Positions 1 through 3,483 of a DNA stretch of 64,000 nucleotides are shown piece after piece; position 1 is the first letter of the stretch; every line of letters starts with the position of its first letter. The position numbers were made by a program, and so were the translations under genes. The DNA comes from Comamonadaceae bacterium. GTDB lineage: Bacteria; Pseudomonadota; Gammaproteobacteria; Burkholderiales; Burkholderiaceae_C. The stretch lies in contig CANFOQ010000004.1 of assembly GCA_947448745.1 (NCBI GenBank), positions 1 through 64,000 of the forward strand, given 5' to 3'. The notes below the pieces were generated by a model. It saw only the letters and a list, made by a program, of their open reading frames with translations, had not been told where the DNA came from and searched no databases.

Positions 1-370
1 TGAGGATGTTGTTGTGCTTTCGAACGCTGTTGGGGTGAAGGCCTTCAGCCAAACGGTGATCTCGGTACTGGGTGATGTGCCAATGTCTGAGTTCATCCAA
101 GTACATGTCGCCAAACTGCGCCACAAAGCTTTTGAAGTACTGATTGGCATTGAGTTTGAATTTGCGTCTGTGGGCTGAGGTGTTCTCAGTCATGTAGATT
201 TCAAACGCATCCGACAACTTGGGGCGTTGCTTGCTGTTGAAGTCTTGAAGGTGTTTGATCAGCAACTCCTTGATCAAGTCCTCATCAACATCGATACCGC
301 TGACGTTGATGCGCCTTGTGATCTGGGTGTTGAGATAAGTGCGTGGTGCAATTTGAATTTCATGTGTCAT
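1..370 (-). CDS. tyrosine recombinase (integrase), 5' part only, runs off the window
   Basis: Reading leftward from ATG at 370, 123 codons stay open to the window edge. The peptide contains an alpha-helical SAM-like core-binding domain: YMTENTS, then FGDMYLDELRHWHITQYRD, then GLHPNSVRKHNNIL (about residues 55-123). That layout is typical of the N-terminal DNA-binding part of phage/island integrases; the catalytic Arg...Arg-Tyr domain would lie outside the window. Only a weak ribosome site precedes the ATG. It lies about 400 bp from a tRNA-Asn gene cut at the anticodon loop and is transcribed away from it, so it is probably the integrase that made that junction (inference). Family is fairly sure; the exact subfamily is not. 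Confidence 0.75.
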   Translation of the reverse strand, partial: MTHEIQIAPRTYLNTQITRRINVSGIDVDEDLIKELLIKHLQDFNSKQRPKLSDAFEIYMTENTSAHRRKFKLNANQYFKSFVAQFGDMYLDELRHWHITQYRDHRLAEGLHPNSVRKHNNIL

Positions 371-622
371 GTGATTCTTAAAAGTTGCACAGCCTAAGCA
401 AATGCAGCAGTTCAGTGGACTGCACATGAATTTAGTTTCAGCACCACGGTTTGGGCAACCGCTTCAGTGAGTGTCCCGAAGCATTGGACGGACTCTCAAG
501 CAGCTTGAAAAAATAGAAAATCAATAAGCACTCAAATCAAAGTTTTGGGCAATGAAAGCCAACTTTGTTTTGGGTCGTTAAGAGGAGGGTGCCAGCAGCA
601 AAAACTAGGTTTTCAAATCGTC

Positions 623-639
623 AGTTGCAATATGCAACT
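623..639. repeat. perfect inverted repeat, 7-bp arms
   Basis: AGTTGCA, spacer ATA, TGCAACT. It sits about 140 bp from the cut tRNA-Asn. Possible recombinase or regulator site; function is inferred from position only. Confidence 0.35.
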
Positions 640-712
640 TTCCATAATGTGAGAAGCCTACGAAGTATTCGTGCAATAACCGTGTAATTGATACCTTGGG
701 TTAAATATAGGC

Positions 713-731
713 TATAAATCGTTGATTTATA
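713..731. repeat. perfect inverted repeat, 7-bp arms
   Basis: TATAAAT, spacer CGTTG, ATTTATA, about 47 bp on the element side of the tRNA-Asn break. Candidate arm-type site for the adjacent integrase; AT-rich sequence makes chance occurrence possible. Confidence 0.35.
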
Positions 732-777
732 TGGGTTTTTTAGGGGTATTTTTTAGTAAGGAACTGTTTCTGCGGAG

Positions 778-815
778 TTAACAGTCCGGCGCTCTACCGA
801 CTGAGCTATCGAGGA
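778..815 (-). pseudogene. truncated tRNA-Asn (GTT), 5' half only
   Basis: On the minus strand the sequence from 815 matches the 5' half of a bacterial tRNA-Asn: acceptor strand TCCTCGA, D-arm AGCTCAGTCGGTAGAGC, anticodon arm start, and anticodon GTT at nucleotides 34-36 (782-780). After A38 the match stops: no variable loop, no T-arm GTTCGA and no acceptor 3' strand follow. A promoter-like sequence remains upstream. The break in the anticodon loop is where many tyrosine recombinases cut, so this reads as an attachment-site remnant. A functional tRNA-Asn must exist elsewhere in the genome. Confidence 0.75.
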
Positions 816-828
816 AAGTATGGGCAAG

Positions 829-859
829 ATTGTAACAAATAATTTTTTCCACTCTTCAA
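829..859 (-). promoter_or_regulatory. likely original promoter of the truncated tRNA-Asn
   Basis: Minus-strand -35 TTGAAG (859-854), 19-bp spacer, -10 TACAAT (834-829), about 14 bp before the tRNA 5' end. Its presence suggests the right side is the chromosomal half and the element lies to the left. The spacer is slightly long. Confidence 0.45.
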
Positions 860-999
860 ATGCGCCTCTCACAGGTTGAAAACGCCGCACTATTGATCAT
901 TTTTCATGCTCAAACAACGCATTGCAGGTTTCTTTCTCATGGGTCTTCATCAGCAGATTGAATCATTCAAACGCACCACTTTTTGAAGAGCTTTTCAAG

Positions 1000-1186
1000 A
1001 TGAGCACATCACAACACATGGCACTGATGGATGCAGTGCAAATTTATTTCCAAGGCGAAAAAATCGAAGCCTTGTTGTTCATATTGCCGCTTGGTTTGTT
1101 GAGTGTGGTTTTTGGTCTGTGCTTGATCACAGACAACCCCCAACAGTTTTGCCAAGGGTGTGGCTATTCCATTTCTGGCCGCCTAA
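1000..1186 (+). pseudogene. remnant of a small membrane protein, frameshifted and short
   Basis: From ATG 1000 (or 1027) the frame gives a hydrophilic start MDAVQIYFQGEK and one strong hydrophobic segment, ALLFILPLGLLSVVFGLCLI. After the codons at 1141-1149 the frame turns to cysteine/proline-rich sequence unlike a membrane protein. Skipping one T in the TTTT run at 1147-1150 gives FAKGVAIPFLAA and a stop at 1184-1186, a more natural continuation. I read this as a decayed gene just inside the chromosome-element border. The parent family is not recognised with certainty. Confidence 0.35.
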
Positions 1187-1222
1187 AGGCCAAGCCGTGC
1201 ATGTCATGGCCTTGTCACATAG

Positions 1223-1246
1223 TTCCAATATCATTGAAATATGGAA
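1223..1246 (+). promoter_or_regulatory. candidate ArsR operator overlapping the arsR start
   Basis: An imperfect dyad TTCCAATAT ... ATATGGAA (one extra base in the left arm) spans the arsR initiation codon at 1241. TATCAT at 1229-1234 could be a -10 element, which would put transcription start on or next to the ATG. ArsR proteins usually bind a dyad overlapping their own promoter; this is a position-based inference. Confidence 0.3.
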
Positions 1247-1567
1247 GACAAACTCGTCATCAAAGCACTGGCCGCACTGGCCCAGCCAAACCGGCTGCAA
1301 ATATTCCGTTCATTGGTGGTCAAAGGCCCTGAGGGTCTGACGCCTGCCTTGCTGGCAGACAGCTTGGGGATGCCGGCCAACACGTTGTCGTTTCATCTCA
1401 AAGAGTTGATGAACGCCGATTTGATTTCCCAAGAACGCAGTGGCCGCAACCTGATTTACCGCGCCCAGTACGACCGCATGAATGCGGTGCTGGCTTACTT
1501 AACGCAAAACTGTTGTCAGGGCGAAGTCTGTGAAGTCAGCCCCGACGACATTTGCAAAACCTGTTGA
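1241..1567 (+). CDS. arsR: ArsR-family arsenic-responsive repressor
   Basis: A 108-residue winged-helix protein: LAQPNRLQIFRSLV (helix 1-2 region), then the recognition helix region LADSLGMPANTLSFHLKEL, then the beta-wing SGRNLIYRA. It lacks the classic ELCVCDL site of plasmid ArsR. Instead cysteines cluster at the C-terminus: C91, C92, C97, C105 and C108. A C-terminal Cys-Cys...Cys site binds As(III) in Acidithiobacillus ferrooxidans ArsR, so the same is likely here. First gene of a four-gene arsenic operon, 15 bp before arsC. There is no clear Shine-Dalgarno sequence before ATG 1241. Confidence 0.9.
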   Translation: MEDKLVIKALAALAQPNRLQIFRSLVVKGPEGLTPALLADSLGMPANTLSFHLKELMNADLISQERSGRNLIYRAQYDRMNAVLAYLTQNCCQGEVCEVSPDDICKTC

Positions 1568-1582
1568 ATCAAAGGAACCTGC

Positions 1583-2086
1583 ATGACAGATACCCAAGCC
1601 CTGAACGTGCTTTTTTTATGCACCCACAATTCTGCCCGCAGCATCTTGGCCGAAGCTTTGCTGAACCACATGGGGCGCGGCAAATTCAAAGCGTTTTCGG
1701 CAGGCAGCAGCCCGAAAGACAACCAGCAACCCAACCCCATGGCCTTGGCCACCTTGCAAAAAGCCAACATTTCAATCGAAGGCTTGAGCAGTAAAAGCTG
1801 GGACGTGTTTGCAGAACCGAACGCGCCGCACATGGACCTGGTCATCACCGTGTGCGACAACGCTGCAGGCGAGGTCTGTCCCTATTGGCCCGGTCAACCG
1901 GCCACCGCGCACTGGGGCTATGCCGACCCTTCCGCAGGCGAGGGCAGTGACGACGAAAAAATGGAAGCGTTCAAACAAACCTTGCATCTGATCAAGCGCC
2001 GATTGGACATCTTCACCAGCCTGCCGATGGCCAGCTTGAACAAAATGGCATTGGAAAAAACAGCACGCGACCTGGCAAAACAATGA
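1583..2086 (+). CDS. arsC: arsenate reductase, low-molecular-weight phosphatase type
   Basis: 167 residues. The P-loop CTHNSARS begins at C13, and the redox pair C91 and C99 (VCDNAAGEVCP) matches the thioredoxin-coupled ArsC family, in which three cysteines relay electrons while As(V) is reduced to As(III). A good ribosome site (AAAGGA) precedes ATG 1583. The C-terminus is longer than in the staphylococcal enzyme, about 131 residues. It overlaps the aquaporin gene by 4 bp (ATGA), suggesting coupled translation. The product As(III) would leave the cell through the next gene's channel. Confidence 0.93.
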   Translation: MTDTQALNVLFLCTHNSARSILAEALLNHMGRGKFKAFSAGSSPKDNQQPNPMALATLQKANISIEGLSSKSWDVFAEPNAPHMDLVITVCDNAAGEVCPYWPGQPATAHWGYADPSAGEGSDDEKMEAFKQTLHLIKRRLDIFTSLPMASLNKMALEKTARDLAKQ

Positions 2087-2745
2087 TCCATTGGCAACGC
2101 TACTTTGCTGAATTGATCGGCACGGCTGCGCTGCTGTGCGCCGTCATTGGCTCGGGCATCATGGCCGAGCAACTGGCTGGCGGCAACATGGCCGTGGCCT
2201 TGTTGGCCAACACTTTGGCCACTGTGTTTGCCTTGTATGTGCTGATTGAAACCTTGGGCCCGGTCAGTGGCGCACATTTCAACCCCGTGGTGTCTTTGGT
2301 GATGGCTTGGCGCAAAGACTTGGCTCGTCATCACTTGCTGGGCTATGTGTTGGCGCAATTCATGGGTGCGGCTTTGGGGGCATGGTTGGCCCATGCGATG
2401 TTCGATCTTGAAATACTGCAATGGTCAGTGAAGGTGCGAACAGGGCCAGCGCAATGGTTGGCGGAAGCTGTGGCCACTGCTGGTTTGTTGTTCGTGGTGT
2501 TGCGTGCACATGCTGGCAAAGCCTCGGCTATGGTCGCTTGTTATATTGGCGCAGCTTATTGGTTCACAGCCAGCACCTCGTTTGCCAACCCTGCTGCTGC
2601 GTTTGGGCGCATGTTCTCCAATACCTTTGCGGGCATTTCGCCAGCCGATGTGCCTGCATTCATGTTGGCTGAGTTGGTTGGTGGCCTCTTGGGTTGGGGC
2701 TTGCACCGTTTGCTTTTGTCCAAACACGATCAACACCATCACTGA
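2083..2745 (+). CDS. aqpS: aquaglyceroporin of the arsenic operon (AqpS type)
   Basis: 220 residues with six predicted membrane segments and two half-helix motifs: HFNPV at residues 66-69 (first NPA box reads NPV) and FANPA at 168-171. Several residues nearby, SGAHFNP and STSFANPA, match the MIP family branch found in ars operons. In Sinorhizobium meliloti AqpS replaces an ArsB pump and lets As(III) made by ArsC flow out. No arsB or acr3 is present here, so the same downhill efflux route is likely (inference). Confidence 0.88.
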   Translation: MIHWQRYFAELIGTAALLCAVIGSGIMAEQLAGGNMAVALLANTLATVFALYVLIETLGPVSGAHFNPVVSLVMAWRKDLARHHLLGYVLAQFMGAALGAWLAHAMFDLEILQWSVKVRTGPAQWLAEAVATAGLLFVVLRAHAGKASAMVACYIGAAYWFTASTSFANPAAAFGRMFSNTFAGISPADVPAFMLAELVGGLLGWGLHRLLLSKHDQHHH

Positions 2746-2766
2746 CGCTTCCACCACCACAAGCCC

Positions 2767-3483
2767 ATGACCGACCACACTTTGCCCCAGTTGGACGCAG
2801 ACAGTTTCCAAACACCCCAGCTGCAGATGCTGCGCAGTGAAAAAGCCTCAAGCCATGCGCCGCGCATTTTGATGTTGTATGGCTCGCTGCGCGAACGGTC
2901 CTACAGCAAGTTGCTCACCTTAGAGGCCGCGCGTTTGTTGGAACGCATGGGTGCTGAGGTCAAGGTGTTCGATCCTTTGGGTCTGCCGCAGCCCGATGCT
3001 GCACCCGACAGCCATCCCAAGGTGCAAGAACTTCGCAACTTGGCGACATGGTCCGAGGGCATGGTCTGGTGCTCGCCAGAGCGGCACGGTGCCATGACCG
3101 GCATCATGAAAAGCCAAATCGATTGGATTCCCCTGTCGGTGGGCGCGGTGCGGCCCACACAAGGCAAAACTTTGGCGGTGATGGAGGTGAGCGGTGGTTC
3201 GCAGTCGTTCAATGCGGTGAACCAAATGCGCATCTTGGGGCGCTGGATGCGCATGTTGACCATCCCCAATCAAAGCTCGGTGGCCAAGGCTTTTTTGGAG
3301 TTTGAAGAAAACGGCCGCATGAAGCCTTCGGCCTACTATGACCGGGTGGTGGATGTGATGGAAGAGTTGGTGAAATTCACACTGCTCACGCGGGATGTCG
3401 CGCCTTATTTGGTGGACCGTTACAGCGAACGCAAAGAGTCTGCTGAAGAATTGTCAAAACGGGTGAATCAAAAAAGTCTTTGA
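2767..3483 (+). CDS. arsH: ArsH, NADPH-dependent FMN reductase / organoarsenical oxidase
   Basis: 238 residues, flavodoxin-like fold. The FMN phosphate loop is GSLRERSYS (39-47); later blocks [19 protein letters not shown] and [14 protein letters not shown] are ArsH hallmarks. Family members oxidise trivalent methyl- and aromatic arsenicals to less toxic pentavalent forms using NADPH. It is the last gene of the operon, 21 bp after aqpS, and its 3' end overlaps the convergent mobA by 16 bp. No clear ribosome site was seen before ATG 2767. Confidence 0.92.

Follow-up and report, generated by a model that had tools for sequence, protein, structure and literature searches.

The analysed window is a stretch of 64,000 nucleotides (G000:C4:1-64000), base 1 of which is the first base of contig C4 (82,419 bases) in a 2.45-Mb assembly of 67 contigs that is 96.24% complete. 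The window starts inside a tyrosine integrase gene at the contig edge, and nothing is assembled further left. An orphan tRNA-Asn 5' half (TCCTCGATAGCTCAGTCGGTAGAGCGCCGGACTGTTAA) lies on the minus strand, from its first base at 815 to the anticodon loop at 778, and equals the first 38 nt of the intact tRNA-Asn of congeners with 0 mismatches. Past the loop, the minus-strand reading goes on as CTCCGCAGAAACAG, and the 3' half is not rebuilt. The first foreign bases (770..777, minus strand; CTCCGCAG) form a cassette left end of the kind called type A below, and resemble the beginning of a tRNA 3' half. Two arm-like repeats, ATTACAC and ATTGCAC, follow at 671..688 on the minus strand, 11 bp apart, 89 and 100 nt past the loop. 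The stranded half retains a native-type promoter (829..837, minus strand), the extended -10 of which, TGTTACAAT, matches the consensus; its -10 TACAAT, at 834..829, stands 13 nt before the tRNA, within the native class (8-13 nt) defined below. The N-terminal part of the integrase occupies 1..370 on the minus strand and is cut by the contig end. Comparison with relatives places its start at 370, a further ATG in frame being found at 427; the start codon thus set is located ~0.4 kb beyond the foreign sequence at the tRNA half, and the reading runs off the contig. The first 815 bases of the window are 91% (90.9%) identical in DNA to the relative locus L074. The original prediction of a tRNA-Asn gene cut at the anticodon loop beside an integrase is borne out by the 38-nt identity to congeners and by the integrase N-terminus, and the window sequence confirms that the 5' half and its promoter remain on the chromosome side while the 3' half is unrestored on the element side. 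On the plus strand, positions 1241-3483 encode an ArsR-type regulator, an LMW phosphatase-like protein, an MIP channel and an FMN reductase, as assigned by Pfam, which we take to be a likely arsenic operon.

The integrase fragment of the window alone has no Pfam match. The full-length integrase of L074 (P0001, 342 aa) matches Phage_integrase (PF00589) above the cut-off (E 2.2e-08) and a PHROG integrase family (E 7.8e-30), and a second protein, P0002, also matches Phage_integrase above the cut-off. No NCBIfam family was found for the integrase, and no solved structure matched it in sequence at E <= 0.001. No phage or plasmid carrier turned up when the integrase was compared by tblastn (E <= 1e-20) with 50,697 records of phages and 72,556 of plasmids, and the left-end pattern of types A and B had 0 exact matches in IMG/VR. 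Three viral contigs carry integrase relatives at 60-61%, and no tRNA-Asn half was found on them at the threshold used. A tRNA-Asn half accompanies 12 of the 30 genome loci with integrase relatives, namely every near-full-length match of at least 72% identity (11 loci) and the truncated copy L147. The other 18 loci comprise ten at 58-64% identity (L130, L132-L140), L131, and seven that are mostly partial (L141-L145, L148, L149). In L131 (1-1403; the record is labelled uncultured Burkholderiales), an integrase at 61% is found behind a different tRNA 5' half (...GACTGTTAA, 29 nt visible), and the arm repeat offsets, 89 and 100, are the same as those of the window. The combination of another tRNA half with the same arm offsets suggests that the core may track the tRNA of its host. 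In L139, another distant relative, a tRNA-Lys 3' half was noticed by eye ~300 bp before the integrase match.

A DNA search with window positions 700-1300 against 61 genomes of the genus, that of the window included, gave matches in 43, often to a piece of ~46 bp recurring at 0.7-8 kb spacing. The fetched stretches carry tandem 38-bp tRNA-Asn 5' halves, the last of which belongs to an intact tRNA-Asn where the contig extends there. The halves are all repeated in the same direction. Many assemblies show this half joined to a foreign end of this kind, and the junction is therefore not due to chance. One of the two options originally offered, a restoring half at the other end of the element, holds in the relatives in an altered form: the far end brings a new 5' half and a promoter, and the host 3' half remains beyond it. 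The second option, loss of the original 3' part, is at odds with relatives that share the junction and keep an intact gene at the far end. Neither option anticipated the tandem arrays, the units without an integrase or the exchange of promoters described below. From these relatives, we infer that tRNA-Asn is also rebuilt at the far end of the window element.

No tRNA was called by ARAGORN or Rfam at the window junction. The window assembly has 31 Rfam tRNA matches, and no intact tRNA-Asn was recognized among them, so that the suggested count of intact genes gives none, one of the 31 matches being untyped. ARAGORN found no tRNA-Asn on 29 of the 30 fetched loci, the thirtieth gene being covered by a neighbouring locus. 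The genus-type 3' half (pattern ...CGTAG, <=3 mismatches) was likewise without a match in the assembly. These two absences are what would be expected if the half were a dead fragment in an organism that uses another tRNA-Asn or has lost the distal part. However, the assembly, at 96.24% completeness, is split into 67 contigs and this contig stops inside the integrase; other assemblies also break at the same site, and relatives with the same junction hold an intact gene at the far end whenever they extend far enough, all of which renders a dead fragment quite improbable. Anticodon loops are known sites of tRNA introns, and a group I intron or another self-splicing element could be imagined here on that ground. 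No group I intron or other RNA was matched in Rfam at E <= 1 within window positions 1-3000, and the far end in relatives features an intact loop together with a full second 5' half, which introns do not bring; the probability of such an intron is negligible.

In the relatives, 18 half-to-half intervals were delimited. Their lengths are 7742, 2153 and 1677 bp in L072; 710 and 708 bp in L073; 1734 bp in L074; 2062 bp in L075; 2939 bp in L076; 1677 bp in L077; 2051 bp in L078; 1576 bp in L079; 8002 bp in L209; 21.3 kb across L209 and L208; 8874 bp in L210; 1577 bp in L213; 1581 bp in both L214 and L215; and 2136 bp in L216. The last half abuts the contig end in L079 and L215, and two of the 18 intervals come from the Limnohabitans sp. 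MMS-10A-178 record (L121). Ten intervals contain a near-full-length relative of P0001, and seven of these hold little else (1.6-2.1 kb). The first L072 interval (7742 bp) carries a truncated integrase (residues 1-136), and the remaining seven (0.7-2.9 kb) carry no integrase, nor any remnant of one by tblastn at E <= 1e-5. An integrase-less unit adjoining an integrase unit between halves was seen in one array only (L072).

Cargo was assigned to several integrase-less units. The 2153-bp unit of L072 carries GST and DUF1330 genes, L075 a predicted metal-dependent hydrolase (PF10118) and a protein without a family, L076 an AEP-TOTE primase-helicase (PrimPol-like according to PADLOC), L078 a protein with TPR repeats and a weak glycosyltransferase match, and L079 an extracellular solute-binding protein. 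The two L073 units (710 and 708 bp) are mutually 92.5% identical, have no ORF longer than 96 aa and, apart from tRNA, no Rfam match. Larger units have multi-gene cargo, as read from translations only. Intact tRNA-Asn genes have fully paired acceptor stems in 39 of the 39 readable cases (of 40 genes), and no tRNA besides the rebuilt tRNA-Asn was found inside the intervals across the 18 loci scanned. In L079, a TPP riboswitch maps to 2709-2811 on the plus strand, ~4.4 kb upstream of the tRNA-Asn half.

All-against-all comparison of the cassettes (alignments >45 bases) revealed ends in common and different interiors. Thus, the integrase-less L075 is 93.7% identical to the window across 237 bp and 94.2% identical to L074 across the last 139 bp, and the integrase-less L078 is 93.8% identical to L077 across 292 bp. 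Left ends fall into three types. Type A (CTCCG[CT]AG) is found in the window, the first L072 interval, L074, L075, L076 and L080-L082; the exact end of the window is common to the first L072 interval, L074, L076 and L080-L082, while L075 reads CTCCGTAG. Type B (GTCCG...) is found in the last L072 interval, L073, L077, L078 and L213-L216, and type C (TCCA..., with a terminator-like hairpin seen by eye) in the middle L072 interval, L079, L209 and L210. Each type includes cassettes with and without integrase. ATTRCAC repeats 11 bp apart occur in all 22 distinct left ends, at offsets of 87-90 and 98-101 past the loop; in L075 only one copy is intact, the other being mutated. Type C left ends have 7-9 mismatches to the arm consensus, which equals or approaches the minimum reached by shuffled sequences (8-10), so that the assignment of arms to type C rests on the fixed-offset ATTRCAC pairs.

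The right end of all 18 intervals features an extended -10 (TGCTACAAT, TGCTATACT or TGCTATAAT), standing 43, 79-84 or 116 nt before the half in each case. Promoters were surveyed in 68 distinct halves, 40 from intact genes and 28 orphan, after duplicate loci had been merged and halves with <115 nt of upstream sequence (including G083 and G003:C21) had been excluded. Over the 40 intact genes, the -10 distance is two-peaked, at 8-13 nt in 17 and 42-116 nt in 23. The native class (8-13 nt) comprises these 17 and 7 orphan halves, and the class at 42 nt or more comprises the 23 and 19 orphan halves; in the latter, the -10 within 115 nt is weak in the L054 intact gene and in L048. Two orphan halves, one of L054 and one of L146, have no -10 within 115 nt, and the two L054 copies have their -10 box at 116 nt. 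At 44 of the 68 halves, a TG-extended -10 matched in 5 or more of its 6 positions, as compared with a mean of 1.8 and a maximum of 6 in mononucleotide shuffles. The distance classes and this enrichment indicate, as far as sequence can tell, that the promoter of the tRNA is swapped by insertion, each cassette apparently replacing both the front half of tRNA-Asn and its promoter.

Upstream flanks, compared over alignments >100 bases, as was the window with other genomes, identify empty sites. Removal of the 2939-bp cassette from G031 restores the arrangement of G061 (90.7% over 679 bp, without gaps, through the tRNA end), and the upstream flanks of the two genomes are 92.5% identical over 1500 bp. 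G031 diverges from G061 beyond the tRNA because another island lies downstream in G031. Besides G061, G078 offers an empty site for the occupied G031. Flanks of the occupied G041, G053 and G047 are 68.5-78.4% identical to those of the empty G048, G050, G058, G065, G073 and G009. The alternative of a random fragment lacking an element boundary is contradicted by these orthologous sites, which are empty and share the upstream flank. Most of the genomes are fragmented metagenome assemblies, and in G003 the gene is present in two forms, each on its own contig, as might be seen if repeats and junctions were assembly chimeras of metagenome bins. Yet numerous independent records show these same ends, among them the Limnohabitans sp. 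MMS-10A-178 record on a 588,715-base contig and a 443,965-base contig, and internal spacing is nearly fixed; we consider chimeras highly improbable.

Identity at the element was compared with that of other aligned stretches. The element end of the window is 99.2% identical to G015 over 365 bp, where six other aligned stretches range from 67.8 to 74.0%; 90.8% identical to G045 over 819 bp (other stretches 70-74%); and 92.0% identical to G007 over 251 bp (other stretches 77-87%). Similarly, the last L072 cassette and L077 share 96.4% identity over 1716 bp, and their native upstream flanks gave no alignment >100 bp. Transfer of cassettes between species is supported by these differences in identity.

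The tRNA-Asn 5' half (<=1 mismatch) was found in 41 of the 84 genomes of the genus, the 43 without a match being incomplete, fragmented or diverged. As tallied by hand from the halves and promoters, an orphan half adjoins a cassette left end in 14 of these 41 congeners, 10 have an intact gene with a cassette-type promoter and no second half in the fetched sequence, and 17 show the native arrangement. A cassette end is hence present at tRNA-Asn in 24 of the 41, as a stranded half in 14 and as the promoter type alone in 10, and because of these last 10 some cassettes may be fixed and decayed. The complete congeners G048, G050, G058 and G065 each have one copy of the 5' half, and G003 and G010 each have two intact tRNA-Asn genes. 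In G003, contig C80 (L077) carries an occupied tRNA-Asn with a TCCTCGA/TCGAGGA acceptor stem, and contig C21 (L207) starts at an intact tRNA-Asn with a native-type half and a TCCTCAA/TTGAGGA stem; the pair perhaps reflects a population mix of filled and empty sites, or two loci. In a sample of 399 genomes of the family, six of which belong to the genus of the window, the type A and B left-end pattern, which leaves type C outside, was detected in two, both of that genus (1 of 141 genera). The arrangement may extend beyond the genus, since named records that feature it fall outside the genus set; records of relatives are labelled, for example, Limnohabitans or Comamonadaceae.

On this evidence, the window feature is very probably the outer junction, on the host side, of a small element with a tyrosine integrase that entered tRNA-Asn at its anticodon loop and belongs to the 5'-restoring type. 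In the relatives, integrated copies start with the stranded 5' half, followed by a degenerate 3' half, the arm repeats and either the integrase or cargo, and end with a promoter, a leader and a new 5' half fused to the host 3' half. The far-end fusion yields an intact tRNA-Asn under the promoter-like site of the element, and insertion strands the previous promoter and 5' half, both then directed into the element, as they are in the window. Repeated insertion leads to head-to-tail arrays, in which the newest cassette is presumably the one nearest the intact gene. The circular form would join the two cassette ends, and in the circle the cassette promoter may read through the half into the integrase, in the manner of the ICEKp1 3'-end promoter discussed below. 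Integrase-less cassettes with both ends may be moved in trans by the integrase of another cassette, and some of them could be deletion products.

The same integrase-less units might instead be cis-mobilizable relics, ordinary islands from which the integrase was deleted and which were left between att sites, moving, if at all, only along with a neighbour (accretion). Support for relics comes from Dehalococcoides, where islands that have an integration module and islands that lack one stand in tandem at ssrA (PMC3146451), from CIMEs in streptococci (PMC5704250), from the truncated integrase in the first L072 interval and from the 10 of 41 congeners with a cassette-type promoter and no second half in the fetched sequence. 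Relics would less readily explain why the seven integrase-less units (0.7-2.9 kb) keep both ends, the arm pair (one L075 copy being mutated) and a promoter-like 3' end, why near-identity to integrase cassettes is confined to the left end, and why no integrase remnant is found in the seven at tblastn E <= 1e-5. We regard relics as a serious possibility that falls short of probable. Mobility in trans leads to a different reading, related to integrons. Integron gene cassettes are single-gene units arrayed at one site by a tyrosine recombinase, and the present cassettes resemble them in being single-gene units arrayed at one site. Unlike in integrons, a tRNA gene serves as the site, the integrase lies inside one of the cassettes and the units carry promoters; the likeness concerns this organization. 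We tentatively propose a tRNA-anchored analogue of the integron, in which a lineage-specific, cassette-borne tyrosine integrase would capture single-gene cassettes in trans at tRNA-Asn and the promoter of this essential tRNA would be exchanged repeatedly by mobile DNA. Each cassette would pay for its entry with a new promoter and 5' half, and restoring islands of opposite polarity, some with the same arm repeats, would load the other side of the gene. If the system works as inferred, its compactness (a single integrase and a single site, with units of ~0.7-2 kb) would make it a natural setting in which to ask how gene cassettes lacking a recombinase spread.

Islands at tRNA genes, islands that restore the 5' half (uncommon) and tandem accretion are already known. 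Of the 3919 islands in Islander (PMC4383910), 159 carry a 5' tDNA fragment and 2083 have a site centred on the anticodon; recombination at the 5' side is described as considerably less frequent (PMC6563490, citing Zhao and Williams 2002). The present elements resemble the Islander 5'-fragment islands in having a tyrosine integrase, a crossover in the anticodon loop, a displaced 5' fragment upstream and a gene rebuilt at the other end. They differ in the near-minimal integrase-only units (1.6-2.1 kb), in the integrase-less single-gene units within the same arrays and in the recurrent replacement of the promoter at one tRNA gene across a genus. As for the features by which Islander-type islands are recognized, a PF00589 integrase is present in 10 of the 18 intervals and lacking in 7; an intact tRNA with a same-orientation 5' fragment upstream is found in relatives, the window holding the fragment only; and a related genome with an empty site exists (G061 and G078 for G031). 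Islander would not resolve integrase-less units, because it keeps tandem arrays only if every member has its own integrase (PMC4383910).

The ssrA islands of Dehalococcoides, 16 with and 15 without an integration module (PMC3146451), are similar in forming tandem arrays at one single-copy RNA gene. In contrast to the tRNA-Asn cassettes, they use a serine recombinase and the ssrA 3' end, have 20-bp repeats and are larger, and in that text the 5' part and promoter of the gene are not replaced. Streptococcal CIMEs, described as integrase-less and cis-mobilizable and as undergoing accretion (review PMC5704250), likewise lie between att sites in tandem with integrase-bearing elements. They are presented there as decayed ICEs or IMEs, whereas the units described here are small and have complete ends common to integrase cassettes. 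In ICEKp1, according to PMC13023037, int is read from the tRNA-Asn promoter when the element is integrated and from a promoter at the 3' end of the element when it is excised; ICEKp1 adjoins an intact tRNA-asn with its own promoter in use, while in the present cassettes a tRNA 5' half stands behind the 3'-end promoter, and the tRNA comes under the control of that promoter. By analogy, ICEKp1 points to a way in which a tRNA could recruit a promoter of this kind. tRNA-dependent lysogeny, where the phage brings an entire tRNA of matching isotype to make up for the disrupted gene (PMC10865867), is a different solution: relatives rebuild the gene at the junction, and no extra tRNA was found in the intervals of the 18 loci scanned. 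No description of this cassette system was found in the open-access papers searched, and the reversed polarity, the promoter swap and the occurrence of near-minimal cassettes and integrase-less single-gene ones in arrays of one kind look new.

The tRNA-Asn gene is loaded from both sides, with 5'-restoring cassettes upstream and 3'-restoring islands downstream. The tRNA-Asn 3' half (<=3 mismatches) was found in 49 of the 84 genomes, and several have extra, displaced 3' halves, which are those of ordinary 3'-restoring islands. The arm consensus occurs 85 nt past the loop in 5 of 14 distinct flanks that follow intact or displaced 3' halves, one flank being too short to judge, and in none of 8 empty-site flanks; not all 3'-side islands are thus of the arm-sharing kind. 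The 85-nt loop-to-arm distance is the same as in types A and B, where a degenerate tRNA 3' half follows the loop. Loading from both sides with shared arm consensus and spacing was seen in L076 (12874 onward), L072/L275, L078, L075 and L273. The integrase beside the L076 3' island (461 aa, Phage_integrase 2.7e-07) is distantly related to P0001 (25% over 120 aa). Shared arms would fit either descent of the 5'-restoring type from the 3'-restoring type or shared arm recognition. In the former case, an ordinary 3'-restoring island might have given rise to the cassettes, its 3' half decaying in place with the loop-to-arm spacing kept, after the other end had gained a promoter and a 5' half. If the system works as proposed, it would also lend itself to the study of how restoring islands come to switch polarity. 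In L257 (G008:C53, 2320 to 1075, minus strand), a 1245-bp 3'-restoring cassette at tRNA-Asn has no integrase-like ORF among those listed; its cargo consists of one ORF of the Zeta-toxin family and another of 66 aa without a family.
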